Position numbers and translations under genes: made by a program | The notes under the pieces: model-generated | Databases searched by the model: none | What the model was told of the DNA's origin: nothing | What the model saw: only the letters and a program-made list of their open reading frames with translations | Shown here: positions 6,501 through 64,000 of the stretch, piece after piece | Layout: each line of letters starts with the position of its first letter | Numbering within the stretch: position 1 is the stretch's first letter | Origin: Dermatophagoides farinae | Lineage: Eukaryota > Arthropoda > Arachnida > Sarcoptiformes > Pyroglyphidae | DNA length: 64,000 nucleotides | NCBI RefSeq assembly: GCF_024713945.1 | Contig: NC_134678.1 | Location: 3,906,001 to 3,970,000 of the forward strand | Direction of reading: 5' to 3'

Positions 6501-9500
6501 ATTTTGTCCTTGTTGTTGCCATCCAAGAAGCTAGTTTCTACTTCATATTCTTATTAGAAATTTATTCATGCATTAACATTCATTTGAGTATTAAACATCA
6601 TCTTTTTCATTAAAAAAAATGGTGACCAATTATATATTATTTCTATCATCATCGTATATTCCAAATTTATTTGAAATCTAACAAAGATAAATCTTCATGA
6701 TAAAACATGACTTTATATAGAAAAAAACAAATGAAAATCCTGTCAAAAAGAATCAACAAGAGGAAGTTACCTTGTTTCTTTTTCAATTTCTTACGTTTTG
6801 AGTTTAGGGGTGTTTGTTCTAACTAAATATAGAAATTACGATGATTCTAATTAATTTTTGACAACAGCTGTTGTTGTTGTTGTTGTTGAAATCGATAAAG
6901 AATAGCCAATACAATTGGCATTCTACTTTTTCAATTTCAATGATTTGCTGTTTCGTTTGTCGTGACGCTTTTCTATCCTCGTGATGATTAATATTTTTTT
7001 TTCGTAAAAGTCATAGTTATGATTGCAAAACGTTGTCGTTATGGCATTCATATCCTGTGACGACGAAATCCTAAACAATGTACGATTGTAACAAATCGAC
7101 AACGTATTATTCATGATGACATTGGTAAGCATAGCAATCATGGCTATTGATTACAATCATTCTCTATTTTTCCTATCTGTTTATAGCGTACATTTTTCTG
7201 TTGTTTTGCATTATGTATGAAGGAAATCTTAGTTGCTTATAACTTAGCTAATATCTTTGTGAGGTTTTCATGATCAATGACGACCACATATTTATAAACA
7301 AATATATAAACACATCAACAACAACATCAATTATCACGGTTTATATCTTTCTTTCACTAACATTCTTCTCATACGATTAAATTCTTTAGTAAAGTATAAA
7401 TCTAAAACGACGAAATAGACATAAACCTCAAGACAACAGTAGTGGTAGTGGTGGTAGCGGAAGCATCAATAACTTTGTTCCATTAGAAACAAAACAATAG
7501 AACGGCTCAACAAGGATTGATTGTCTCAAGAGAACAAGAAACATTTTCTACGACGCCATATACATGAGAGCAATAATCATCATCATCATCATCATCATTG
7601 TCAGCCATTACAAGCATTATATGTATAGATTGGGCGCTTTTTGTCGTGAATCAAATTGCTCGTCGTTATCATTGTTTTGTTTGCTTCGTACTATTGATAT
7701 TGATATTGTGTAGATAAACTTTTGAATCTTATTATCTGCTTTCATTATTATCAAATTTTTTTTTGTTTGATATCAACCTAATATATTGTTGTCGTCATCG
7801 CCATTTTCAATATATACATCAAAATAACGTCATCGACATAGCTTAAAATCGACATACCCGAGGAAAATCGCCAATCATACAATCAGTTACAAAGAATAAA
7901 AACGTCACAACCAGAAGAATCGTTTCCTCTGTCATTTATTCGATTCTATTATTTTTTTTTTTGGCCTCTTCATCATTTTTTGTTTGTTTTCCTGATTCCT
8001 TTATAATTTCACCGAATCGACACAACTTTTCTACCTTTTACTTTACGCCAATAATCTCTTGAGAATTTTTTCATCTTTTTTTCACGTATTTTTTTCTGCT
8101 TCTTTCAATTAAAAAGAAGGACATATCAAAAAAAACTTTTACTGATTAAAATGGCTATCAAAGCTGCTGTCCGAATACAACGACAACAAATCGTTCCGGA
8201 GCAACAATTCTATGGGGAAGATTTTATACTGATCGATCATCACAACTGTCATCATGATGGGCAGCAGCAAATCAATACAGGCAATCGTAATTCATTTATT
8301 TGTCGGATTAATAGAACTGGAGAAGACGATATTCTGTCTGATGTTTCATCTAATCGAAACGTATTATAGGCCAATAATTAATCAATTACCATTATCGAAT
8401 AATAAGAATAGCAATAAATCAACGATAGACATCAACAGACAACTTGATCGAACTACAACCGGCAAGGAATGGTATTGCCGAATATCGAATGCCATCAAAA
8501 CGTATTTATGGTCTCCAAAAAGCATACAAAAGACAATTCGATAAAAAATTTGACAGAGCTGCCATACTTTTAAGTGATAATTGTTATTTACAATTTCATC
8601 GTAATCACATTGATTGGCAACTAGTGTTTGCTCCAATATCGGGCTTTCCTTGCTGCCGGCAATCGAATACAACTTTAGCAAAGCAATTGGATTTTGATTC
8701 ATTGTTTGATATTGAAGATGCCATAACACAATCGGCATATTTGTTGGCTAACGCTCGTCAGCATTCTCAATTAATTGACAATCTAATCCTAAACAATGCT
8801 GAGACAAATAATGGATCAAATGATATTGAAAACGATGGCAAACAACCTTATCGACCATCCAGTCAATATGAACTAATTATGAAAGATGACTATGATGATT
8901 TCACAAGATTAGTCAAAATGATAGAAAAACTTGTCAAAATTAAAAGCGAACAAATGAAAGAATGTTTAATGATAAGTGAACATCAAAATAAACCAAAAGA
9001 ATCATTAGGTCTGCTGGACGCTTGGCTTTTTTTCAAACGAAAGTCGAGATCGTTTGATCAAACAGAAAATGAACATTGCCATGAATACGATGTTAGTCAA
9101 GTTCAAAATCTAATTGAAGATTTGCGAAAAGAAATTGCTTCTTGGGAAGAATTGATAGATGTAATCAATATTTTAAAATGCTCACCATCATTGCAATGAT
9201 GATGAATTTTGTTTTCATTTTCATATAAATTTTTTTTTGTAATAAATACTCTATAAAAACTCATGAAAGAAACTTTTCAATTATAACGGAGGAGAATTTT
9301 AAGCAGAAGCTTATTGCTTGTTTTATATAGGAAGCAAATTTCTTGAATTCAAATTTCAAAAATAACAAATGTCTTACCGGTCTATAGAAATCAACATCAT
9401 GGTCGATACGGATGAAACAATTGTCAGATTGGCGATAAAATTATTGGCAATGCAATAAATTTTGCCGAAAGGCCAATGTTGGTGTAACATGAATACGAAA

Positions 9501-9913
9501 TTAAAACTAGCATTGAATGTAACAGATAGGAAATCCGATAGTGTCAAATTCATCAAATATTGATTCATAATATTACGCATCAGTGGTTTTGTAGCTATAA
9601 TCCAGATGATTAATAAGTTACCGATGGCAGCCAATATGACCATTGGATAAAATAACAATGACCAAAGTAATGTTTCCAGAAAGGAAGCCTCCAAACTTGA
9701 TGTTGCCGTTGGTGATGTTGAAGCCGATATCGAATAAGTCGGAGTAGATGTAGTAATTATATTGATCGCAGTAGCAGCGGTTGTATCAGTTTGCGATTGT
9801 CGATCCAAATTCACTGGAAATTGACTATTTAAATAAAATTGCTCCATAACATTATTCAAATATTGAATAGTAGACGATGCGTTGACAATTGGTTTTTCAT
9901 TAAAAATGGACAT
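3566..9913 (-). CDS. TkR: Tachykinin/neurokinin-type neuropeptide GPCR
   Basis: Rhodopsin-family receptor for a tachykinin-like peptide, plasma membrane, probably Gq-coupled by family. Exons read leftward: 9913-9378, 5562-5065, 4997-4822, 4705-4531, 4412-3566; 2232 nt, 743 residues. Exon 1 has a Thr/Ser-rich N-terminus and TM1-TM3, with GNLLIIWII, NLTLSDFLSV, HWPFGKIYC and ISIDR joining YYAIVHPLKPR across the splice, so DRY is intact. Exon 2 carries TM4, a very long Thr/Asn-rich second extracellular loop and CIMRWPDG. Exon 3 gives TM5, and the junction of exons 3 and 4 gives SKRKVV then VFALCWLPYHSYF (TM6). TM7 reads YLAFYWFAMANSLFNPVIL, so the usual NPxxY tyrosine is Leu. Exon 5 starts RNYLKYYVKCACC, a likely palmitoylation site, followed by a His/Gln-rich tail of about 260 residues. 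The WPDG and YLAFYW motifs favour the insect TkR86C type. A separate gene lies inside intron 1 on the other strand. The exact end of the tail is uncertain. Confidence 0.88.
5563..8150. other. First part of the long receptor intron
   Basis: Non-coding sequence of the 3.8 kb first intron of the tachykinin-type receptor, before the nested gene. It is AT-rich with short CAT/GAT and TTG runs (about 6870-6888 and 7578-7600). The small open frames are not protein-like. The stretch just before 8151 should include the nested gene's promoter and 5' UTR; no clear core element was identified. Confidence 0.5.
8151..9199 (+). CDS. Unrecognised two-exon gene nested in the receptor intron
   Basis: Exons 8151-8360 and 8429-9199 join in phase 0 across a 68-nt GT-AG intron into 981 nt, 326 residues. 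ATG at 8151 has A at -3 (ttaaaATGG). The early part has the basic stretch MAIKAAVRIQRQQ; around the splice is a Ser/Asn-rich linker; exon 2 carries RMPSKRIYGLQKAYKRQFD, then mixed charged, probably helical sequence with LDFDSLFDIEDAITQSAYLL and a C-terminal amphipathic helix (LIEDLRKEIASWEELIDVI). There is no signal peptide or membrane span. A consensus AATAAA follows at 9241-9246. It lies wholly inside intron 1 of the tachykinin-type receptor on the opposite strand. Codon-like composition over 771 nt, the clean intron and the poly(A) signal argue for a real gene. I recognise no family; a cytoplasmic coiled-coil or helical protein is all that can be said. Confidence 0.7.
9241..9246 (+). terminator. 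Poly(A) signal of the nested gene
   Basis: Consensus AATAAA 42 nt after the stop of the nested gene, the right distance for 3' end formation. Confidence 0.55.
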
Positions 9914-18710: not shown

Positions 18711-19266
18711 TAACACAATCAATTCAGAATTCAAAATTCAAAATCGAGAAAACATCAAATCCAACCTAACACGACCAGTTCAGAATCGAGAAAATAACAA
18801 GTCCAAACTAACACAATCAATTCAGAATTCAAAATTCAAAATCGAGAAAACATCAAATCCAACCTAACACGACCAGTTCAGAATCGGGAAAATAACAAGT
18901 CCAAACTAACACAATCAATTCAGGATTCAAAATTTAAAATCGAGAAAACATCAAATCCAACCTAACACGATCAATTCAGAATTAAGAAAATGACAAATCC
19001 AACCTAACACAATCAATTCAGGATTCAAAATTCAAAATCGAGAAAACATCAAATCCAACCTAACACGATCAATTCAGAATTAAGAAAATGACAAATCCAA
19101 CCTAACACAATCAATTCAGAATTCAAAATTTAAAATCGAGAAAACATCAAATCCAACCTAACACGATCAATTCAGAATTAAGAAAATGACAAATCCAACC
19201 TAACACAATCAATTCAGAATTCAAAATTTAAAATCGAGAAAACATCAAATCCAAACTAACACGATC
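18685..19266 (+). repeat. Higher-order minisatellite, six 98-bp dimers (42 + 56 bp)
   Basis: Twelve monomers alternate strictly. The short one (42 bp) begins AACCTAACACGACCAGTTCA; the long one (56 bp) begins AAACTAACACAATCAATTCA and carries a 14-bp insertion that duplicates the TTCAAAAT region. Six dimers of 98 bp account for the 582 bp. The first copies pair AACC-short with AAAC-long; later ones drift to CGATC and AACC starts. The right edge is the 14-bp target site of the non-LTR element, and the array resumes after it at 21357. Confidence 0.9.
19253..19266 (+). repeat. Left target-site duplication of the non-LTR element
   Basis: AAACTAACACGATC, identical to 21357-21370; the minisatellite continues directly after the right copy, so this is the filled target site. 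Confidence 0.85.
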
Positions 19267-21249
19267 ATGGGGAAAATTTTCGAAGGTATTATTGCTCGTC
19301 GCTTACAATTTTTCCTTCTTTCTAATAAAAAATTATCTGGCAACCAATTCGGTTTCATCCCGCAGAAATCTACTGAACAAGCATTATATCGAATTAGCAA
19401 TAAAATCAAAGCCATTTTTGAAAAGAAAAGTTTTGCTATTCTGGTTTCTTTGGATATTACGGGTGCGTTCGACTCGGCTCGTTTTGATCTCATTTTGGAG
19501 CAATTAAGACATTTTAACATTCCACCTAATTTGTATGCCATCTTATTCAATTACTTTTGTGACAGATGGGTGGAATTACCCCTTATTGGAACATCGGCCG
19601 TGAAACAATGCTCTGGTGGTTGCCCGCAGGGTGGGAAAATTTCCCCGTTATTGTGGAATATATTAATTGACAAATTGTTAAAATTGCCTTTGCCACACAA
19701 TTGTCATCTACAAGCTTATGCGGATGATTGTCTGATTTTTTGTGAACATCCGAACGCTGATAATTGTACTTGGCTTGTTAATAATTGTTTAGAGATTATC
19801 TATGAATGGGGATTAGCCCATGGACTAACTTTTAACCCTTCCAAATCGGAAGCTATGATTATTACCAAAAAGAGAAAATTTAACATTCCATCGATATTTT
19901 TAAACGATCAGGCTATAGGACTTGTTCCTTATATCAAAATACTTGGCTTAGTCGTTGATTCGAAACTCTCTTGGAGCCATCATATCGATTATATTTCTTC
20001 CAAAGCTACTAAGATTTTCAATATTATTAAAAGAAGATTCGGTTCACTTTGGGGCTTGTCTTTTGATGTACTCCGCACCATATATTTACAGGCTATTGAA
20101 CCGATGATCCTATATGCTTGTCCGGTTTGGCATAAACATGGTACAAATATGAAACGATTATTGAGAATACAAAGGTCATTCGCAATTGGCATGATCCGTG
20201 CCTACCGAACCGTCTCTTTGGAAGCCTCATTGATCATAGCAAACATTCCTCCTATTCATTTTAAATTGGATTACCTGGTAAAAATGTTTTCTTTAAAAAA
20301 TAACTCGACCGCTATGGATTGTTCTTATGAATTTCCTATTGCTTATGATAATTTGATCCATCCAGGGAAAATCAATCTTTCGGTTACAAATGAAAATGAT
20401 ACTTGTTTTCAACATCAACATTATTATCATATATACACTGATGGATCCAAATTCGAAAATTATGTTGGTGCTGCGTTTGTTGTTTTTTCAGTCCATGAAA
20501 ACCGTATACCATTTTTGAGAAAAATGTTTCGTCTGGATAATCGTTGTTCAATTTACCAAGCCGAACTTTTGGCTGTTGTTGAGGCTATAAATTGGGTTGT
20601 TGATAATAATGTTCCTGGCGTTAAAATTATGTCTGATTCTCAAGCTGTATTGTTGTCGATTCAAAAAATCTATTCTTCCAATAGGATGGTACAGCATATT
20701 TTTCAAAAAATCGTCAATTTTAATGGACATATTTGTTTCGAATGGGTTAAAGCGCATAATGGAAATTTTGGAAACGAATTAGCGGATTATTTAGCCAAAA
20801 GAGCTGTAGAATCGCCGATTTTGAATTACGATCTTTTGCCTTTATCCTTCTTTAAATATGAATTCAAAAAACAACTATATTGTGCCTGGAATGAGATTTG
20901 GACAACATGCTCTAATGGATCCACTACTAAAAAATTTTTTCCACTGGTAAGCATCAGATCAGGAATCAATCTGTCTCCCGATTTCATTCTTACCCAATTT
21001 CTTACAAACCATGGAAAATTCAACCAGTATTTAAACAGAATGCGAATCAAAGATCAATCGTCATGTTTCTGTGGTAATCCTTCACAAACATCTTTACATT
21101 TAATTTTGGAATGTGATCGTTTTGCAGCACAGAGATGTTTTTTCGCTTGTTACTGTTCTGATATGTCTAATTCTCTATCCAATATGTTGGATGAAAATAT
21201 TAGAAAATATTTTTCAAATTTCCTTCTTTCTATTTATAATTGTTTATAA
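19267..21249 (+). CDS. ORF2 fragment: reverse transcriptase plus RNase H (I/R1-group LINE)
   Basis: 660 residues, uninterrupted. Reverse-transcriptase motifs in order: GKIFEGIIARRL and GFIPQKSTEQAL (residues 2-45), LVSLDITGAFDSA (catalytic Asp), GCPQGGKISPLLWN, AYADDCLIF (catalytic DD) and GLTFNPSKSEAMII, then IKILGLVVDSKLSW. An RNase H domain follows at about residues 390-520: IYTDGSK, YQAELLAVVEAI, IMSDSQAVL and HNGNFGNELADYLAKRA, with the D-E-D-D residues in place. The C-terminus has CFCGN...HLILEC, the cysteine/histidine cluster typical of these elements. The AP-endonuclease domain and any ORF1 are missing because of 5' truncation, so it could not transpose alone. RNase H argues for the I, LOA or R1 groups rather than Jockey or RTE. 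The ATG at 19267 may be fortuitous: the frame is open upstream into the array. Confidence 0.92.
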   Translation: MGKIFEGIIARRLQFFLLSNKKLSGNQFGFIPQKSTEQALYRISNKIKAIFEKKSFAILVSLDITGAFDSARFDLILEQLRHFNIPPNLYAILFNYFCDRWVELPLIGTSAVKQCSGGCPQGGKISPLLWNILIDKLLKLPLPHNCHLQAYADDCLIFCEHPNADNCTWLVNNCLEIIYEWGLAHGLTFNPSKSEAMIITKKRKFNIPSIFLNDQAIGLVPYIKILGLVVDSKLSWSHHIDYISSKATKIFNIIKRRFGSLWGLSFDVLRTIYLQAIEPMILYACPVWHKHGTNMKRLLRIQRSFAIGMIRAYRTVSLEASLIIANIPPIHFKLDYLVKMFSLKNNSTAMDCSYEFPIAYDNLIHPGKINLSVTNENDTCFQHQHYYHIYTDGSKFENYVGAAFVVFSVHENRIPFLRKMFRLDNRCSIYQAELLAVVEAINWVVDNNVPGVKIMSDSQAVLLSIQKIYSSNRMVQHIFQKIVNFNGHICFEWVKAHNGNFGNELADYLAKRAVESPILNYDLLPLSFFKYEFKKQLYCAWNEIWTTCSNGSTTKKFFPLVSIRSGINLSPDFILTQFLTNHGKFNQYLNRMRIKDQSSCFCGNPSQTSLHLILECDRFAAQRCFFACYCSDMSNSLSNMLDENIRKYFSNFLLSIYNCL

Positions 21250-24896: not shown

Positions 24897-26252
24897 TTTT
24901 TTTTTATATAAAAATACGGTCTCATTATTGGCGAAAAATGTGAAAATTGTTTTTAAACGAAAAAAAATGACAATTGAGATTGAGATTTACATCATCCCTT
25001 ATCACTTATTATCATTGTCTGGGAAATGTTGTACACAAAAAAAAACTTCATTCGAGGACAATTGAAAATTGTATCACCTGCTTGCCTGAGGCATACTAAA
25101 TGGTTTAATGTACTGCAACAAACAATTTTAATGACTTGAATGAAAATGTACCAGGTTTATTTTACTTGAAAATCATGAATGATAATACGAGACAAGATTT
25201 AAGAAACACCCTCTCTTATTAGATGGTTGTTGGTGGCACGCGACCGGAATACGATTTGTTGATGTTAATCGTTGTTCGAAATAAACGAATCGTCTTTAAC
25301 GAACAGAGGTCAAATCGGGCGTTTGTTGTGATGTTGATGATTTAAGAACTGAATCGCCAGCTGAATTTAACTATTGAAGCAATCAATCTATTCTCTCCCC
25401 TCTTTTAAGACGATCAACAATGTTGCATGACAACAGCTGCTGCCCTCACACACACACACACACTTCATAATTGTATCATTTTAGCCTCAATTGACCTTAT
25501 CATTGAACAAATTCATTGATACGTTTTTGGGTTCCATCTTTTCAGACTATGACCATTTTTATTTAGCCAATTTGAACACAATGTCAAATGAGATAATTAG
25601 GTAAAGATGTAAAAAAGTCAACTTGGAAAAAAATTGACATGAGGCACGATTATTTTTTATTTTTTCGTGTTTATAATCAAAACTAATTACATTTGGCACA
25701 TCATCATCATCATCAAAACCAAAATGACAATGGGCCTCACAAAAACAAAAGGGGCCTCAAACACTTTGTATCGATAAACAATTAAACACTCGCGAGATGA
25801 TCAAACAAGCTCGCTCTGATTTTTTGATTATTTTTTTCCTATTTTTATTTGTTTCCATTGAGCCAAGATAAGCGACATTATAACATGCCACGCCACGCCA
25901 GGTGTATCAAAATCTCTACCCTAAGTAAAAAAGGATGAGATTTGAAAATTTGGTTGTATACTCTTGGTATTCATTTTCTGACACACGTTTTCAAATGTTA
26001 ATGTTTGTATGTTTGTCTGTCTATGTATTATCCATGTTGTGCTGTTTATTGACTGAATGATCAAACTCAAAATGAAACGACAACGTCGACGCCTCGCCTC
26101 CTTCGTTCGATTCACGAATATATCCAGTCATATCAGAGCAAGCGTGTATTATTTCAAATATACATATAAACTAAGTCGATCCATTTGAATCTGATCAAAT
26201 TGCCATTTTTGTTCGTCCAATAACTTCGATCAAATTGTTATTAGAAAAATTG
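24897..26252. other. Upstream region of the bHLH gene
   Basis: AT-rich intergenic DNA with a (CA)n run at 25447-25463 and small CAT runs (about 25700). It should hold the bHLH promoter. I see no gene. Confidence 0.5.
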
Positions 26253-27353
26253 ATGAACAAAAAAAAATTCTTTACAGTTTTATTGATGGATACATTCAAC
26301 AATTCTTCGAACCTTTTTGGTATGTCAACACCGCCAGCATCAACATCCACTCCCATTCCCAATGATCATTCGTGTTTGTTCCGAGTTAAGGATCAAACAT
26401 CGAAAGAAATTATCATCTCGAATAAGAATGAAATTCACAACGCACCATTCGTTTATTCAGAATCATTTGATAACAACTATGGCTTGAAACAAGGGCCAGA
26501 TCATGAGCTTGAATGGAATATTCAGTCCATGTACGCTGTATCAAATCATAAATTATCAAATAATTCATCAATTAAAAGACAGAGATTTCGTAGATCTCCT
26601 GGATCTTCGAAACCATCAAAATCTGCGTACAAACACATTCCACATCGTGAAAAACCCGTGCATTTAGTGGCAAAACGAAATGCCCGCGAACGGCGACGTG
26701 TACAAGCAGTGAATATGGCTTTCATGCGTCTACGTCGTTGTGTTCCAGTGGAAAATCGAACAAAACGTTTATCAAAAGTTAAAACTTTACATAGAGCCAT
26801 TGAATACATTGCTGCATTGGACAGAATATTGAAACAAGATCAAACTTCGAGCACAATAACGGCTAACGAAAACACTTCGATTATCAATGAAAATGATCCA
26901 TGTACGTTTCGTTCTACATTACGGGTCCACCATTCTCATCATCAACTGAACAACCAAATTGAACCAATGATGATGATCACTAATGAAAATCATAGCTTTA
27001 TGCTCAATCCATCCAACACTATTCATGTAGAAGAACGACAAGTAATCAACGACAGTGATCAACAATATTTTCATTCAATTCCATCCACTTCCTCTTCATC
27101 TATATCATCCGATGGATTAAATTTTTCCATTGGTTATCATCGGCAACATTCACAATTAAAGGAATTGGAATCACATGAAAATGATGACCATCAATTGACG
27201 ATGGCAACTATCCGATATAACAATGACGTTTCGTCGTCTCATTCTTCATCGATGATGGTGATGTTAACATCTATGATTGATAATCAAAATCATCACTCTC
27301 ATCATAATTATTTACGCAATCAAAATATTGACAAAGAAATTTGCATCCAATAA
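26253..27353 (+). CDS. Achaete-scute-like bHLH transcription factor
   Basis: 366 residues from the ATG at 26253; a second in-frame ATG at 26286 is also possible. Single exon, as usual for achaete-scute genes. The bHLH lies at about residues 140-195: basic region VAKRNARERRRVQAVN with the E-box-contacting Glu, helix 1 MAFMRLRRCVP, a short loop, and helix 2 RLSKVKTLHRAIEYIAALDRIL. RVxxVN and SKVxTLxxAxxYIxxL are the achaete-scute family pattern; the loop is short as in Ascl3/4/5 and lacks the long loop of fly AS-C proteins. Flanks are Ser/Asn/His-rich without known domains. It should act as a nuclear DNA-binding heterodimer with Daughterless-type partners, probably in neural or sensory precursor fate. 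AATAAA follows at 27519-27524. bHLH identity is certain; the subfamily is likely, though other class A groups such as Ptf1a/Fer are the alternative. Confidence 0.85.
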   Translation: MNKKKFFTVLLMDTFNNSSNLFGMSTPPASTSTPIPNDHSCLFRVKDQTSKEIIISNKNEIHNAPFVYSESFDNNYGLKQGPDHELEWNIQSMYAVSNHKLSNNSSIKRQRFRRSPGSSKPSKSAYKHIPHREKPVHLVAKRNARERRRVQAVNMAFMRLRRCVPVENRTKRLSKVKTLHRAIEYIAALDRILKQDQTSSTITANENTSIINENDPCTFRSTLRVHHSHHQLNNQIEPMMMITNENHSFMLNPSNTIHVEERQVINDSDQQYFHSIPSTSSSSISSDGLNFSIGYHRQHSQLKELESHENDDHQLTMATIRYNNDVSSSHSSSMMVMLTSMIDNQNHHSHHNYLRNQNIDKEICIQ

Positions 27354-42800: not shown

Positions 42801-45424
42801 TTTCTTTTTCTTGCTCTCTCTTATAAGATGGCCTATAGATTTATCAATAAAAAATAAATTGAGCATGACCTGACCAGACTGCTCGGTTCTAGTTCCTATT
42901 TTGGTTTATAGAAATTGGTTTTTTGTTTGCATAAATTTGTGGCTGTCAATGTGGTTTGACGGATCACTGGTTTGACGGTTAAAATGTTTGTATATCTAGA
43001 GAGGCTAGAAATTTATCTTGATATCAATGAATTATGATGTTTCCAAGCTGTCTAAAATTTAGACTCTAAATGAATAGCTTCATGACAAAAAAAAATATTC
43101 CTTTTGTTGATTTGTTTGATCTAGTGTGTATTATCCAATTTTTATCTGAAGATGACACACATGTTGTATGAGACCTTTTTTTAGAGCGATCATTAAACGA
43201 TTGTCGTGGATATGCAGCTACATAACGTAATTCGATATGCTCGGATTTGAATTAGTTGTTGTGATGAAATTTTCACCATTACCAGAAAGCATCATTCAAA
43301 AACATCCGATTTTACGAGCTATTCTTACTAAAATACTACTGATTATGATTTTCTAAGTATTGATCAAGTATATTAGATAAAATTTCTCGATGAACAATGA
43401 TTAGTGATGCTATAGTTCCTCGGATACACATTTGATTGATTGCCAATCATTTGGTTTGATTATAGCAATTATTACTGACATAATGCTCGGCAGTCTTATC
43501 ATCTCTGATTAATCCAACGGATAATTTGTTTGATTTCTTTTCACCCATCGTTATTATTCACACAATCACACCGGAACTAAGATTATAATCGTTTTTTATC
43601 ATAATATTAGAGCTGTTTGAATGTTTTTGATCCGCATTTTTTTATTTTATCGATTTTTTTTATACAGTACATTGGATGTTTAGGCGTCAATACATCAATG
43701 AAAAGTTTGGATTTTCAAACACGTTCACTGATTGCCAAAGAATCCATAAATCGTGTTTGCGAATCAGCCGGGTTGAAAACGGTGGACAAAAAACGTCGCA
43801 TTGATAAAAGGATTGTAGGAATGTTGGCCGACGCTCCAAATATGGGTAAGCTGTTGTTCATTGATTGATAAATTGTTACCAATTCTATTTTGCATTCGAC
43901 CTTCAAATAGAACATGCTGGTGTCGATGCCAATCTATCTATTACGATTTCATATCTCACATTAACGTTAGCCGAAACAGGTGAACCTTTGGCCAAACATG
44001 AGATGCCAAACATTTCTTTTGCATCGGGTGGCGATACGGTAAGACGGTTAAATTGATTTTGTTCTCGTGACTACAATCGTATCAAATTTTTTTTATTGTC
44101 ACATTTCCCCATTCTTTTGGTGCATTTGTCATTATCATTGATTATGTTGAACATAACAGGATACACTTGATTTTGCCGCATATGTTGCCAAAGATACACG
44201 ATTTGAACGGGCCTGTTTCGTACTTGAATGTGAGGATGGTCGAGCTCAAGAAGTTATCACAACTATTGGTCAAGCATTCGAATTGAGATTCAATGAATTT
44301 CTCAAAAGGAATCCATTGTCTACCGAAAGGTTAGTTTTGCATGGCTTGTTATTCGTGTTTTACCCAAAAGTTTAACCATATACGTTCATAGGCTAGAACA
44401 TGGCCATCTCGGGACGAACAATAATAATAATGGACATAATCATAAAACAGCCATGGCCAACAACAACGACAATTGTCAAATAACTCCTGCACAAAGAATC
44501 GAAGATCGTGAATATTATAACGACCTGCCGGGAAAAATTCCTCCTGATATAATGGCAATAAACAACGGTAGTTCTGACCGCATGAATAAAATGATCCCCC
44601 CGTTGGCTGCACCTAGGAGCAAAAAATCAGCTATAACCACAACGACTACACCCAATAATCCGCAAGAGGAACAGATCAATCTTATCGATTTGAATGATGA
44701 TTTAAAACCACCTTTGACAACTACTTCATCAGCTTATAATAGCAACCTATTCTCTAAACAGATTCGGCCCACCGATTCTCAATATGTCAATTGTGGAGCA
44801 TCCGATACAACAACCACTTCCACTGCTAATAAAGATCCATTCGATATGCGTAAGTGTTTCGTGATAATCATGTATAATTTGACAATAACCTGGACATTTA
44901 AACAGAACCTTTCAACAATGCTCTTGCCGTTCATGTATCAGCTACGAGCATGTCTCAATCATCCAACCAAACAGGCAATTCATCAATGAGCCTGCCATCA
45001 ACATCAGGGTTGCAAAAACTGGATTATGTTTCCAATTGTGATTTAGACAAGGAGGAATGGTTTCATGGATCAATATCTCGTAAAGATAGCGAAGCCTTGG
45101 TCATAAGAGATGGTGATTTTTTGGTTCGTGAATCGCAAGCCTCGCCTGGTCAATATGTCCTAACCGGAATGCAAGGTGGTCACCGTAAACACTTATTATT
45201 GGTCGACCCTGAAGGGGTGGTAAGTGTGTCATATTTTCTTACATTTTGCACATCATATTACAACTCAATTTGTTTATTCAATTATTCAGGTACGAACGAA
45301 AGATAAGACATTCGAAAGCGTTAGCCATTTGATCAATTATCATCGAAATAATGGCCTGCCTATCATTTCTTCCGAAAGCGCTTTGGTTCTCAAGAATCCT
45401 ATTATCACATCAAAAAAACATTGA
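36865..45424 (+). CDS. Shc: Shc adaptor protein (PTB, CH1, SH2) with long N-terminal extension
   Basis: Cytoplasmic adaptor that binds phosphotyrosine on activated receptors and recruits Grb2 to Ras/MAPK. Exons: 36865-38646, 43668-43845, 43911-44038, 44160-44329, 44392-44849, 44906-45219, 45290-45424; 3165 nt, 1054 residues, all phases agree. Exon 1 (about 594 residues) is low complexity (poly-Ala, Ser, His, [10 protein letters not shown]) and ends [13 protein letters not shown]...TYTVR, the start of the PTB. PTB continues with [45 protein letters not shown] and [11 protein letters not shown]1 has both Grb2 sites: YYNDLPGK (44514 region) and QYVNCG (44778 region), then DPFDM joined to PFNNAL. 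SH2: [50 protein letters not shown]; the FLVRES arginine is present. Start uncertain: ATG 36865, or an upstream exon joined at an acceptor-like ctag ending at 36880. Confidence 0.93.
38647..43667 (+). other. Long first intron of Shc
   Basis: 5.0 kb between GTAAGT at 38647 and the acceptor tatacag ending at 43667. AT-rich, with a (GAT) run at 39289-39310, (CAT) at 40727-40743 and (TG)n at 41990-42008. Open frames inside have no domain. No nested gene is supported. Confidence 0.7.
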
Positions 45425-56557: not shown

Positions 56558-59500
56558 TCATTGAAGAGACATGTATGGCCAGGTATAGCTATTACCACTG
56601 ACTAACATATCTCGAATTAATGTTTCGATGGGAGTTTTGCCTACTAAACGAACGAAAAACAATTGCTCAATCACATGCGAACTAACTGAACGTAACGAAG
56701 GTAAACGCAGTAACAATTTTCCAAAACGTATCGGCTGATTGGGATAATTTGTTCGGCAATATTCTTCCAATGCGCATTGAGATTTCTCTTGTATGCTTTC
56801 GATGTGGCCACCATCCTGTAATCCACAAGCATCTGTCAATATATAAATATAAAAAAATTCATTAATTACTTGTGATTATTATCAAACAATCAACAATGAC
56901 GAGACCATTCTGTTGCGACAATCGTCCCTATCCTCAACCGATTTGTCTGCACGATCCGTGAACACAAATAGTAAGCAGAAGATACAGTAGCATTAATGTG
57001 ATTTGATTCAATCAAACAAAGAGCTCTCATCCATTCATACAAATCAAATCAAATCAAATCAAACCAAAAACATATCAGAGTGGCTGACAAGAGTGAACCG
57101 TTTTGTCCAAATTTTTTCCGCTGCTGCCGGCTAGCATTGAAACAAAAATTCATCTATTCAAATTGGTGGCTTTTCACGGTTACCATTATACCATTTGGCA
57201 CAAATTCAATTTGTTTGCATCGTGCACACACAACCATTGTTTGAGTGTGTGTTTCAATTTGCAAACAAAATCATTCTCAGGGCCAGCGAACATTATTCGA
57301 TTGTGGTTGGCACAAATCATTATAAAAAATGATTCAATCCGACCGAAACAATGTCTTTCGTTATGATACATACAATGTCAATAATCAAAAGCAACAAAAA
57401 TCAAATGGAAGATTCGTCAAACGGTTTTGAGTAGTATGGTAAATCGTTTCTTATCTTTTTACTGTTGAAAATACACTAATTGCCGAAAAAACATTCATCG
57501 ATATATGGAAGGAAATTTGATGCTCAATTAAATATTGGATGGAAAATCTCTTTTTCAGAATCAATCTAATTGATAAAGAAATTTTCGTTATTCTGCATGA
57601 TGATATTTGGGTGATTGAATTTTAGGAAAGTATAATGGCGAAAATAAATTGAATGATGATGATAAAAAAAAAGTTTGCGGCTTGTCATAAAATTCAGATA
57701 AGTAATCAGTATTTTTCAACTTTTTTTCATTTGAAAAAGATGTAAAAATCTTGTTTTATTCCAAAGATTAAACTTTGATCTCGAAAAGAGTTCTGGGTTA
57801 CAACTTTGAGAACAAGAATAGTAAAGAATGATGATGATGATGATGATGATGACAAGGATAAATAAAAGCATATCATTAACATCATTAAGCAAGTAACTAC
57901 CATCCTAATAATCCCATTGCGGTAAATGTCGAATATTTTCCTCACTGTTGTTGGTTGAGGCTGCCAAATCCATTAACACCAGACATTTTTTTTTGCAATT
58001 GTGTTGAATTCAGTTTTTATTCTACCTACTCTCTCACTCATTGAATCTTTTTGGATCATTAAGGGAAAAAGTGGCATATCAAGTAGCCTCTTCATTCACT
58101 ATACGACTTATAAGAGCAAAAAAGCTTACCATTATCATTATCATCATCATCATTCACCAAAAAAACGAGTCAACTTTTTTTCAGATTTACTGGATCCACA
58201 ACAAACGACGGCAATCCATGTGGCCATATTATCGATTGCTGTGTGTTAGTGACAGTATGCTTGAGTGTGTGTGTGTGTCTATGACAATCGATCATCAAAG
58301 TCAGAGAAGCAGCAAAACTCTTTCGTTCTTTGTTTCTGATATTCGTGAACGAAATTTTGAACAAAAAAAAACTCGGGAACCAAATGACACCAACCAACCA
58401 TAAACAAACAATGCCATATCGGACCGGATGTGGTCAATCACACTAGTACGTTTGGTTTGCCCTTTGACCCGGTGACACAGTCTTTTTTTAAAAAAAGAGT
58501 TGAGTAAATGCACACGTGCAAAACGTGTTTGTTCGCGTTGACCTTTGACTTGGTCATAACAACCATTTTAACTCATCGGTATAGTAACAAAATATCATCT
58601 GCATTCAAATATTATTGGTCTGAAATATTTTGCTATAATTATAACTCACCATATATCGATGGAACAAAAAAAAATTATTATAATTCAACATTGAACCTGA
58701 CCCGACTTTTCATTATCGAAGATAGTTAGATTTTTATTATGAATTGGCTACTCGAATATTTTTCTATTCGTTTTGAATCGGTCCACAATACAATGAAAAA
58801 ATAAGAAAATGTTTGACCTCCTCAAAACATGTTCTTAACAAAAAGTTCGGTGTGGCCCCAGAGAAAAGGTCATGAACTTACTTGGTGTTTTTGAAACAGA
58901 AATAAAAAACAACTAAATCGAGTACAAAATTAATCGGCTTCGTCAATTGTAAGCACTAGGACAGTCTTAGTCAAGCTAGATTTTGTATGTACAAGACCCA
59001 AAGGAGTGTGTGTGACCTTTTTTGCGGTCACACAATAACAACAAGAGAAAATGTTACCGTGTGTTCATTCATAGCAAATGATTTCTTTTTTTTTTATTTT
59101 TATTCATCATCATAAGTTTCAATGACCCCTAACCTTAACTGTAAAGGTATGTGAATGATGATGACGACAAGGGTCAAGTGTTTGTCACACTTGTATATTC
59201 GATCACTTTGAAAATGCAAGCTTTATATGGAAAAAATATCTTAGTCATTGCTATAGTCGGGCCACAAAACGAAAGGTAAGGAAAACGTACGGACCAGAGT
59301 GGCAAAACACATATAGAAAAAATTTTGCCATTGACTTTAACCTTGTGAGTTTTGTATACAATAATGTAATTATCGACCAAATCAATTTGGGCCATTTCAT
59401 CGACACGATCGTCTATTCATGAATTGGTCATTATGAATGAAGTACTTTTCATAGATAATTTGAAATGACGATAGAGGTTTCATTGTTTTCATTTCAGTGA

Positions 59501-62500
59501 AAAGTAAGTTTGAAAGGCCATGTATTGCATCCAAACCTCAAGTATTGCCATCATTTAAATCGAGCAGACACAGGTGATCATCATGATGAGGGACATCATG
59601 AACCATGCATTTTATTTTTTGCCTATGGCTGTGTGATCATTGAAATGACCTTGTAGCCTGATTTTCGTCTCAAACAATTTGATATATTTAAACTTGCCAA
59701 GCATAAACATACCACCAACAACCCTGAATTGTACCCCTGACTTTTAGGGTCATTTGAAAACTAGAATGAAAAGCGAGAAAAACTTTCGCTTCTCGATGCT
59801 TACTTCGGTCATCCTCATCATGATGGCTCATCTTAACATTCTGCCGGCAGAATAGCAATTCACCATGCACACACCCCGCCTGCTTATCTAGAAAATAGAC
59901 TCACTCACTGACTAGCTATAAGCGATAATCAGCGACGAATATAACATTATAACCTTTGACCTTGGTCAAAAAAAAATGAAGAACAAACATGCCAATGTAT
60001 TTGGGTGAGTAGGCATCACCCCTCCGCCGCCAAAGAAATTTCGTCGTTATCACGACTATGATGGCCATCAATACATCGACACAAACACACAAATGCCTGA
60101 CACATGACCGACATTAGACTTTGATCTTTGATCAATGTTGTTGAAATTGTCGATTGCATTGCCATTCCTCCCTCACCACCACCACCACTACCAAGACGAT
60201 AAACATCATCATCATAGTGATGATAAATCGCCATTTCATGTTTGACTACAATGTATATTATTTCCAAATCAATCTATTTATGGAGGTCAGATGGCAACAA
60301 AGGTTAAATTATATAGATGAGAATGGAAACACTTTTTAAAATTGACAAAATCATTTGTTTGTGATAAACATTGAGCAACACTCACCGGTAGTGAACAAAA
60401 CGATCGCTTTCAGACAGCTATATTCGGCTGCATCCACTTGTAGGGCTTTCAATTTTTCCAAATTATCCTGAAAAATGCGAATGTGATCCATGAAGGCCAC
60501 TACACGGTCTGCTGCCATTGGACTGAATAAGTTCGAGAATTACATGTTTGAAAATTTATTTCTATGCGTTTGGACACTTACTTGGCATGAAGACCAGCAG
60601 CTGCTAATAGATGAGCGGTATGCATCGGCATTGAACATTGACTGGCGTTCAAAATGAATAATTCTGACCAGACCATTCGAAGCAGGGAAACCTGGTCTTG
60701 TACTTGAAGATCCGGAAAATGAGGAATTTTCCTCGCCCAATCAACGGCAGAAAATAATATACGGGCAGCCATTTCGCACATGGTCTCGATGCTCAACAGT
60801 CCATTGGCCGATGTACTATGAAGCTGTTGCATCGTTTGTGTCAATCTGGCTGTCGATTCAGCTTGCTGCAGTAAGGATACATAACCTTGTAAATTATATT
60901 TTCCATTCGAACCATTGACTGCCGTAGCGGCAGAAGTCGAGGCTGTTGCTGCCGATAAGCTGTTTCCACCATCCATGCTTGGTACTTGACCATTTACCGA
61001 GTTAAGAGATTGACCGGCTGCATTGTTATTAGTCGACGAAAGCATGCGACTGTTGGTGTTATTGGCAGCTTGTGATTGTTGTTGCGATTGATGATGATGC
61101 GATGATTCCATCGATGATCCATTGGCCACTGGACTTAAACCAAGAGCAGCTGCAGCAGCTGCAGCTAAAGCTGCAGGTGAATGAGCCGCTGAAGATCCAG
61201 TAAAGGATGAATGAGTTGGAGTTAATGGGACACGACCACGCTGAACCGCTGTCGACGATGATGATGAAGGGGAAGAAGAAAAAAAATGATTAGACCAAGT
61301 GTTTGCTGCATATAATGCATGCGCTGCGGCCATTTGTTGTTGCTGATATAGGAAAAGACTAGCTGCTGCCGCTAAAAATTGTTGCTGCTGTTCCGGTGTA
61401 GATTGACTTGCAGTTGGAACATTGTTGTTAACAATAGTAGCAGGATATAAGAATGGCATTGGAATTCCCAACAATGTTGGCATGCAATTGATCATTGTAT
61501 TGCTGTTATTATGAATGGAATGTCGATTTTGTTCTGATTGATTAGAAGCAACTTGTTTAGAATTGCCATTTTGATCATACGATGTCAACGATGACTGGGA
61601 AGAACGACTCGATTCCTGATTCGTAGTAACAGATGTTTGATATCCGTAATTAGCCGAACCGCTAGACGCTGGAGATGGAAGAAATAATGGCGGATAGAGA
61701 AAAGGCGGCATTAGGCCAGTGAGGGATGAATGATTTTCGCTTATAACTGGCGTGATTGCTGTTGGAGATCCACCATACATATTCAATGAGTTTTCCGTTT
61801 CAGATGTTATAGTTGTAATTGATCGATTTGGATCATAGACTACCAAAGCATTAGAATGTGTTGCATGATCCTTGGATGCCCGCCGTTTTGTATTGCTCAT
61901 TTTCGCCATCGAACTTGTAGTTTGTTTTCCTTCCGGAATTCGTGACATGATCGAAGATGACTGGCCCTTATCAATGTTTATCATTTCAGAATATTGTTCT
62001 TCGCAAGTAGAGCTGTTCAGAGGACTAGATCGACTTTGACTAGATGAAAAATGACCATCAATCGAAGGTGAAGGTGATTCATCCACTTTGACCACAACCA
62101 TCATCTCATCGTCAGCATTATCATGATTCGTAATTCGAGCTAAATTCTGATCACGATCATTTGATGAATTCTGATTCTGTGCCATAGTGATGGTGGATGA
62201 CGCAGATCGACAACGATCACGAGCCTTTATAAATGGCTCATCACTAAGAAGAATTTCGATTGACATTTTTATGACTAGAGATAAATGATTGACCAGACTA
62301 GAATAAACCAAATTCAGCCAGGATATCTGACGCGGGCAATGATCGACGCTAAACTAAAGTGACGCTTGGTTGTTGGATCTAATTTTAGCAGCAACATTCA
62401 ATCTCTCTTTATCCTCTTTCCCTCACTATATATATGTTGTGAACGTGTTCCAATTGGAACCGTGGCCAGTCCTCTTTTTTGTATTCTATCTATCATACGC

Positions 62501-64000
62501 TTGCGCCTGGATAACAATTATAGCGGATTCAAATATGGGCGGACCGTGTACCAATTGAACCAAGTTGATGTTTGTGTGTGTGTGGCCACATGTAAACTTA
62601 CAATGTTATTCAACTTGATGAAATGTAACACGCATATCTAGAGTATATCTTTGATCTTTTTTTTAAGCTAACACCAGAATCTCGATATATTTGAGTATGT
62701 GTATAAAATGGATACAAACTCACCTTCGCGACGCATACCCATCTTTAGGCACTTTCGTAGGCGGCAATATTGGCACTGATTCCTATGATGTTGATCCACC
62801 GGACAATTACGACTACCACGACATGAATATGTTAGGTTACGGCGTACTGAACGTTTGAAAAATGATTTACATCCTTCACATGTGAATTGACCATAATGTT
62901 TTCCTGAGCTCTTATCCCCGCAAACCACACACTCTACCGATATCTGATTATTGGTGGTACTACTAGCCGTAACTGTTGTCACACAGTTAGCTGACCCTTG
63001 CGGCTGTTGGACACTATTACCACCATTCATGGTGGCCATATTGCGTTGAGATTGATGTAGATTAACCCGGTTAGTATTGGATAATTTGCTTGTACTGCAT
63101 GTAGGCGTTGATGGTGATGCTTGACTACTTGTTGTACTCGATGCACGACTTGAACTGGATCGAGATCCTAATGGAACGGATCCTCCCAAACTTAACGGCA
63201 ACCCTAAATTCGTATGTGTTACACTAGTAGTCGTTAGACTTCCGGGCGAGCCATGTAGACCAGAACTAGCTGTAGATGATGTACCGGAAATTAAGGATTG
63301 ATGATGTGATGATGATGATGATGATGATGATGACCACTCACAGCCGTGGAACCCATCTGTGATATGTTAGAAGTGGGAAGAAGTTGAGTAAAATTGGCAT
63401 ATTGGCTGTATGCGTTAGTGGTCGTTCCATTTGTCATAATAGATGGTGGATGTTGAGAGGATACTGTGTTGGTCATTGCCAATTGGCCATTAGTTGTTTG
63501 ATGAGACCCGACTGGCTGAGAAGACTGTTGAAAGCCATTGGCTGTAGCATAAGCTACATGACTTTGCATCGATCCATTAGTGGAAACTGTTCCATTGGGA
63601 GGAGGAGCAATGGCAGACATTAGCAAACCCCCATCAAAGGCTTGACTTGGTATGGATGATGGAGATGAATACATTATCTGATGGGGATGATGGGGGTGCT
63701 GGTTATGACTTTGATGGTTTAGATGAGTTGTATTTCCACTTCCGCTGTGTGAATGAGATACGTAATGAGTTTGATGGCGGTGATGATGATTTTGACCAGT
63801 AGAATGAGTACCAGGATAATGTAAGGAGATGTCTTGAATATTTTGACTGCTACTGGGACTTGTTACAATAGGACTGATCGATGAGTTGGATGGTGATAAT
63901 GATGAATGATGATGAAAAGTTCCAAAAAAAGGTGCTAAGGCGGCTGCAGCAGCAACGGCAGCAGCTTGTGCTGCCGGTGCATTATTATTGCTGTTGCTGT
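56558..64000 (-). CDS. svp: Seven-up / COUP-TF nuclear receptor (NR2F), partial at right edge
   Basis: Nuclear orphan receptor that binds AGGTCA repeats and mostly represses. Exons read leftward: 64000-about 63342 (open to the edge), 63269-62724, 61248-60582, 60522-60386, 56832-56558. The first is low complexity (poly-Ala, His, Ser/Asn). The DNA-binding domain is complete: [53 protein letters not shown] and [13 protein letters not shown], then [13 protein letters not shown] across the splice, exactly the COUP-TF junction. The ligand-binding domain reads [110 protein letters not shown] and ends [20 protein letters not shown] with the helix-12 region. Phases of the last four exons agree. The hinge is about 100 residues longer than usual, with Ala, His/Gln and Ser/Asn runs. 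The join between the first two exons is unclear: the best donor is phase 0, the acceptor needs phase 1. Confidence 0.96.
56833..60385 (-). other. Last intron of svp, rich in nuclear-receptor half-sites
   Basis: 3.55 kb GT-AG intron inside the ligand-binding domain. It contains triplet runs (57828-57852; (CAT) at 58143-58155) and (TG)n at 58263-58277. The half of it next to the upstream exon (58.46-60.29 kb) has an excess of TGACCT/AGGTCA, described as a separate entry. No nested gene is supported. Confidence 0.75.
58465..60289. promoter_or_regulatory. Cluster of AGGTCA-type half-sites, including a DR1
   Basis: Exact TGACCT or AGGTCA at 58539, 58814, 58867, 59013, 59646, 59957 and 60284: seven in 1.8 kb, while I count roughly fifteen in the rest of the window. 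TGACCC/GGGTCA adds about four more. At 58539-58551 TGACCT T TGACTT is a near-perfect DR1, followed by inverted TGGTCA; at 59950-59962 TAACCT T TGACCT is another near-DR1, also followed by TTGGTCA. DR1 is the preferred COUP-TF site, so autoregulation of svp is a reasonable inference; HNF4 or RXR partners could bind too. Confidence 0.45.
61249..62265 (-). CDS. svp: Alternative svp N-terminus without the DNA-binding domain (candidate)
   Basis: The intron between the DNA-binding exon and the ligand-binding exon contains 339 codons from an ATG at 62265 ([12 protein letters not shown]) that run without a stop into the ligand-binding exon in its correct frame. The sequence looks coding: [30 protein letters not shown], two PFLYP motifs ([12 protein letters not shown] and [10 protein letters not shown]), poly-Gln/Ala ([26 protein letters not shown]). 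Used from its own promoter it would give a receptor lacking the DNA-binding domain. Alternatively an acceptor (ttatctctag, exon from 62274) in the needed phase 1 could splice it between the two domains. Vertebrate NR2F2 has such isoforms, joined at the same AVQRGR site. No transcript evidence is available here. Confidence 0.6.

Follow-up and report, generated by a model that had tools for sequence, protein, structure and literature searches.

The stretch of DNA analysed here (the window) comprises 64,000 nucleotides of the genome of the mite Dermatophagoides farinae. On its minus strand, from position 56558 to the window end, it carries a gene that we assign to the NR2F family of nuclear receptors, as the orthologue of seven-up (svp; COUP-TF), and in which four exons were recognised (Table 1). 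Exon 1 ends at 62724 (GAA G/GTGAGT) and exon 2 starts at 61248 (ACAG/CGG), so that the two are joined in phase 1 to give GMRRE-AVQRGRV; splicing of exons 1 to 4 produces GMRREAVQRGRV at the junction between the DNA-binding domain (DBD) and the hinge. As in NR2F receptors, the DBD is of the C4 zinc-finger type, and in a comparison with the structure database the spliced ligand-binding domain (LBD) was closest to human COUP-TFII (3cjw; E 9.1e-115, with the alignment reaching the C-terminus), followed by another NR2F entry (2e-87) and by NR2E3 (1.4e-48). A search of the genome with the seven-up product returned, besides seven-up itself, three further matches, which from their translations we take to be an HR51-type receptor, an HR78-type receptor and RXR; no second svp was therefore seen in the genome. 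Two introns, both of phase 1, are described as conserved in NR2F genes: the first at the 3′ end of the DBD, the second inside the LBD (PMC8608329). Compared with the text of that paper, rather than with its alignment, the mite gene has both, at the exon 1/2 (GAA G/CG) and exon 3/4 (ACC G/AT) boundaries, and the intron that hosts the open frame considered below matches the first of them in phase and place.

The coding-like N-terminal part of exon 1 (63290 to 64000 on the minus strand, and past the window to about 64360 in continued coordinates) appears to shift frame some three times within 1.1 kb. One of the breaks falls inside a (CAT)n repeat at 63299 to 63333; the 1.7 kb formed by the intron frame and exon 2 is unbroken. 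The changes may be sequence errors, short introns or genuine change; by eye, no convincing in-phase donor and acceptor were found for a short intron behind the break in the CAT repeat. Elsewhere in the window, all on the plus strand, Pfam detected reverse transcriptase and RNase H domains in a retrotransposon-like frame (19204 to 21246) and a helix-loop-helix domain within one long frame (26175 to 27350), and a long Ser/His-rich frame that has no Pfam match lies, together with an SH2 exon (44902 to 45303), between 36637 and 45303. The SH2 exon looks to us like that of a Shc-type adaptor, and its belonging to one gene with the Ser/His-rich frame is a guess. A separate stretch of the genome (L027) contains, at 6814 to 9763 (+), three similar adjoining frames with a WQDEF motif, presumably beta-glucanase genes.

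Table 1. Features of the svp locus, in window coordinates, with the product concerned and the supporting evidence
Feature	Position	Strand	Product, evidence and scores
Exon 1, part from M63039, zf-C4 DBD	62724..63039	-	Canonical form only; Pfam PF00105, E 1e-30
Remaining intron, candidate leader and promoter region for the short form	62267..62723	-	No coding signal at 62723-62354; TATATATA at 62434
Weak in-frame acceptor AG/T, candidate 342-residue hinge insertion	62274..62276	-	Score -1.7, rank 32 of 71 AGs (crude model); product of 806 aa
Intron ORF, 339 codons, predicted new Ser/Asn/Thr/Ala/Gln-rich N-terminus, ATG at 62266-62264	61250..62266	-	Open frame and coding score
Canonical acceptor AG/C	61248..61250	-	Score 1.8, rank 14 of 71 AGs (crude model); GMRREAVQRGRV on splicing; short form would read through
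Exon 2, AVQRGRV, hinge and LBD start	60582..61248	-	Both forms; Pfam PF00104, E 4.6e-13; COUP-TFII 3cjw match
Exon 3, LBD	60386..60522	-	PF00104, E 0.00017, alone under the curated cut-off; COUP-TFII match once spliced
Exon 4, LBD end and stop	56558..56832	-	COUP-TFII match of the spliced product

The intron between exons 1 and 2 holds an open frame that continues into the second of these exons. From stop to stop the frame measures 591 codons (62353 to 60578) and takes in exon 2, which encodes AVQRGRV and in which the LBD starts; from the ATG at 62266 to the canonical AVQRGRV acceptor it measures 339 codons. The frame stayed open in 0/3000 dinucleotide-preserving shuffles; for the longest run without a stop across the three sense frames of each shuffle, the median was 91, the 99th percentile 170 and the maximum 270 codons. 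Chance opening of a 339-codon frame is thus excluded, and in this genome a frame so long generally belongs to a gene: 200 kb contain 17 ORFs of 339 codons or more, and of the 10 that were tested with Pfam seven had a match at E <= 0.001, six of those above the Pfam cut-off. Repeats in this region are short. The composition of the frame is unlike that of an AT-rich intron, its GC content averaging about 0.40 over the three codon positions as against 0.277 in 81,518 bases that were treated as noncoding, and its translation contains two PFLYP motifs. The genome has at least 17 matches to the LBD family, three of which share an open frame with a DBD match (800, 219 and 317 codons), sharing being judged by equal frame length and nearness and the counts being lower bounds; among the other 14 matches listed, two of them svp's own, the 591-codon svp frame is the longest, the next being of 295 and 290 codons.

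Coding potential was scored with a codon model. Its training set consisted of 42 ORFs, each of 200 codons or more and with almost no overlap among them, drawn from 20 stretches (200 kb) of the same genome; these are inferred rather than annotated genes. The intron frame reached +91.8 bits, or 0.271 per codon (mean of the 42 training ORFs 0.165, SD 0.095), with all three thirds positive (+33.9, +28.6 and +29.3 bits); scored against its own base composition it reached 0.125 per codon, which is below the training mean of 0.173 but within one SD (0.079). Over the same stretch the remaining five frames, with 15 to 30 stops each, ranged from -53.2 to +47.9 bits, the latter belonging to one antisense frame with 18 stops. 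The 29 open codons immediately upstream of the ATG scored -0.4 bits, and the codon score of 62723-62354 was negative in all six frames. When the frame was divided from 62353 into 14 full bins of 25 codons, the first lying before the ATG and the second across it, two post-ATG bins were negative (-1.8 and -7.9). Shadow ORFs of at least 80 codons (n = 59, the longest of 182 codons) had a mean of -0.155 and a maximum of 0.320.

Because amino-acid composition could raise a codon score, a synonymous-only test was carried out with the amino acids held fixed. The intron frame scored +28.7 bits, whereas the base-composition null lay at -77.9 (SD 15.7; z 6.8), the highest of its 2000 draws being -23.5; the expectation under the genome's coding usage was 65.2 (SD 12.1), and the frame lies 3 SD under it. 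The controls of this test were mixed: the other frames of the stretch gave -63.2, -72.4, -48.1, -19.0 and +15.1, the last being one antisense frame, and the undoubted svp exons scored -1.3 (LBD part) and -5.5 (DBD), with -10.0 for the N-terminal stretch of exon 1. Judged from the codon signal together with the open frame, the 339-codon stretch is very probably coding. A preliminary description of this DNA had reported 339 open codons that share the frame of the LBD exon, a composition that looked coding rather than random, and two PFLYP motifs; the count is exactly 339, the codon score and the GC content bear out the composition, and both motifs are in the translation. The position 62265 given there is one base off, the ATG occupying 62266-62264.

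Several features of the intron bear on how the frame might be expressed. A TATA-like TATATATA starts at 62434 (-), which is weak evidence, such sites being cheap in AT-rich DNA. The ATG at 62266 stands in the context CATAAAAATGTC, with A at -3, and is preceded, between 62723 and 62267, by four upstream ATGs, one of them in frame yet closed by a stop. By eye, a palindrome, GTTCCAATTGGAAC, was noticed just upstream of TATATATA, at 62447-62460 (-), and a similar GGTTCAATTGGTACAC about 100 bases farther upstream, at 62546-62561 (-); the two are a possible regulatory pair. Splice donors were scored with a model built on general donor frequencies, and acceptors with a crude one, built from 20 of 22 inferred introns (the two lowest-scoring were dropped) plus svp exon 3, that is, from 21 inferred sites, and scored on its own training sites. 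The exon 1 donor came out at the top of the 116 GTs scanned (12.7); the leader has two middling donors, with last exon bases at 62602 (6.0) and 62427 (5.8), and the best donor inside the frame scored 4.8. A transcript started in the intron would read through the acceptor at 61248 because it would have little donor to splice from. The pyrimidine tract of this canonical acceptor lies farther upstream than usual.

We consider that the intron frame is, with a probability of roughly 0.7, a genuine alternative first coding exon of seven-up that starts within the intron and continues into exon 2 with no splice between; this is the simplest reading and accounts for the whole of the coding-like stretch. 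Transcription would begin inside the intron, or else a noncoding 5′ exon would be spliced in just ahead of 62266; translation would begin at the ATG at 62266 and, with no strong donor ahead of it, the acceptor at 61249/61248 would be read through as exon. The product would be a seven-up of 698 residues, with 339 new residues followed by the hinge and a complete LBD, and it would have no DBD, as the preliminary description had proposed and as the sequence supports well; in this it would resemble variant 2 of vertebrate NR2F2. The gene thus probably makes an additional form of seven-up that is unable to bind DNA, for which we infer a promoter, a transcript, a protein, dimerisation and a regulatory effect.

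The new N-terminus is rich in Ser (19%), Asn (9%), Thr (8%), Ala (7%) and Gln (7%), and it is probably disordered. AlphaFold, run without an alignment on the first 561 residues of the short form, gave a mean pLDDT of 37.4, which is compatible with disorder but is weak evidence of it, because the LBD part was low too. An A/Q-rich stretch ahead of AVQRGRV was modelled, at low confidence, as a helix, which we regard as speculative, and it is likewise speculation that a basic stretch, TKRRASKD, could serve as a nuclear signal once the DBD is gone. In the same 561 residues Pfam (E <= 0.1) found PF00104, the LBD, alone, with nothing in the new N-terminus, and the best 60 of 364 PDB matches were all in the LBD. 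A search of the mite's own genome with 331 of the 339 new residues returned, at E <= 10 and with three candidates scored, the frame itself alone. Relatives of the product were also sought in a collection of genome contigs (79 pattern-matching stretches) and in one of viral contigs (36 such stretches), in neither of which mites are expected, and 0 were confirmed in either.

The frame could instead serve as an insertion into the hinge, which we think unlikely: exon 1 would then be spliced to 62274, 61668 or 61533 and a DNA-binding Svp would gain 342, 140 or 95 residues, respectively. Each of these acceptors preserves the frame when joined to the phase-1 donor, and the complete products have 806, 604 and 559 residues from M63039 (the canonical product from the same Met has 464, hence the 342 extra with 62274), although an AG falls in frame by chance one third of the time. 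The two acceptors inside the frame, 61668 (8.5) and 61533 (7.4), outscore the canonical one at 1.8; the scores are those of a crude splice model of 21 inferred sites, however, and both acceptors would leave the coding-like stretch ahead of them unexplained. The sole acceptor that uses the whole frame is that at 62274, which the preliminary description had offered as a second possibility; it exists, is in frame and would add 342 residues, but it scores poorly (Table 1). Moreover, an insertion would separate the DBD from the AVQRGRV extension, and the RXR of the same genome has the corresponding KREAVQEERQR directly after its DBD. An insertion is known in the COUP-TF of a sea urchin; the literature searched yielded nothing relevant on it. 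In all, a 342-residue hinge insertion is less likely than an intronic start exon. Less probable still is that the gene makes both products from one long exon 2, entered by the intronic start or from the upstream donor: a single open frame would serve either, and the crude model gives the canonical acceptor a low score, but two regulated events would be required. That the frame is a chance opening in an intron, at most a retained one, is very improbable, for although a low-complexity S/N/T/A/Q composition can favour open frames and the synonymous test fails to single out the undoubted svp exons, none of the 3000 shuffles stayed open, the synonymous-only z is 6.8, and the signal is present in all thirds and absent from the 29 codons ahead of the ATG.

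An intronic start exon in seven-up would have its nearest counterparts among other nuclear receptors. Variant 2 of vertebrate NR2F2 (Iso2), as described, shares with the mite form the gene family, an alternative first exon, the absence of the DBD and an LBD as in the long form. Its new N-terminus is very short, and we take it to be joined at the same residue as in the mite. It differs in that its first exon is spliced on, whereas the 339 mite residues run unspliced into exon 2, and in that its transcript and protein have been detected, whereas the mite form is a prediction from sequence. For the architecture, a close arthropod precedent, which the preliminary description did not mention, is beta-FTZ-F1, for which transcription is described as starting in an intron, with a start exon that extends into the downstream coding exon and gives a unique N-terminus; this type of start exon is called general in arthropod FTZ-F1, a potential frame extending the exon being reported in four chelicerates too (PMC8136749). 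In mite svp, exon 2 is likewise prolonged on its 5′ side by an open frame that reaches into the intron. The FTZ-F1 start exon, however, lies before the DBD exon, and the DBD is kept, whereas the mite frame follows the DBD exon; the mite short form would lose the DBD because its start exon extends the exon after it. The receptor families also differ (NR5A for FTZ-F1, NR2F for mite svp).

Another ecdysozoan DBD-less isoform is that of the FTZ-F1 orthologue of C. elegans, which is described as arising by alternative splicing together with new translation initiation (PMC8136749); it belongs to a different receptor family and, in contrast to the product proposed for the mite, is made by alternative splicing. 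Arthropod seven-up isoforms have been described in Blattella, where, according to the results section, Svp A and B differ in the C-terminal LBD and have the DBD in common (the discussion has one sentence with N-terminal instead, apparently a slip) (PMC5225475), whereas in the mite the N-terminus would differ and the LBD be kept. An arthropod DBD-less seven-up was found in none of the titles and abstract openings listed, a weak negative, with most subscription journals outside the literature searched, and the word seven-up is absent from the main text of a stage transcriptome of D. pteronyssinus (PMC12105342).

As to function, the 11-residue dimer-helix motif of the LBD is identical in the mite and in human COUP-TFII (3cjw). 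We assume, from the numbering, that the two leucines that human Iso2 needs to bind Iso1 lie in this motif, and because the mite shares this leucine-bearing motif unchanged, our best guess is that the short form pairs with full-length Svp. The human DBD-less NR2F2 isoform is reported to bind full-length NR2F2, with two leucines required, and, according to context, to inhibit, enhance or redirect it: inhibition is reported in one setting and enhancement in another, and the action in melanoma is context-dependent (PMC10073109, PMC7016888). The mite short form would most likely act by LBD-mediated pairing with full-length Svp, and possibly also with RXR/USP (dimerisation of Drosophila Svp with USP is mentioned in PMC1847479), and by binding Svp cofactors, so that it might tune the activity of Svp while making no DNA contact of its own. 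A dominant-negative or cofactor-sequestering action, as suggested in the preliminary description, would be an extrapolation from work on vertebrate NR2F2. DBD-less forms can be minor, since expression of canonical NR2F2 is reported to exceed that of the other isoforms nearly 1000-fold in human bipotential gonad-like cells (PMC10768475).

That mite seven-up encodes a DBD-less COUP-TF which is dedicated and under selection, carries a large N-terminal domain of its own and is made from an intronic start exon at the ancient phase-1 intron, has in our judgement about an even chance of being correct; in this reading, vertebrate NR2F2 makes its DBD-less variants at the same ancient intron. Automatic gene models of mites may miss the intronic exon or force it into the hinge. 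If the reading is true, the splitting of LBD from DBD in NR2F was either invented twice or is ancient, and arthropod NR2F signalling has a built-in regulator that does not bind DNA. DBD-less COUP-TF isoforms are already known in mammals, where published accounts of what they do disagree. A case in an arthropod could be tested in an animal in which only one NR2F gene was seen, and it would help to decide whether a non-DNA-binding partner is a general feature of the NR2F family.
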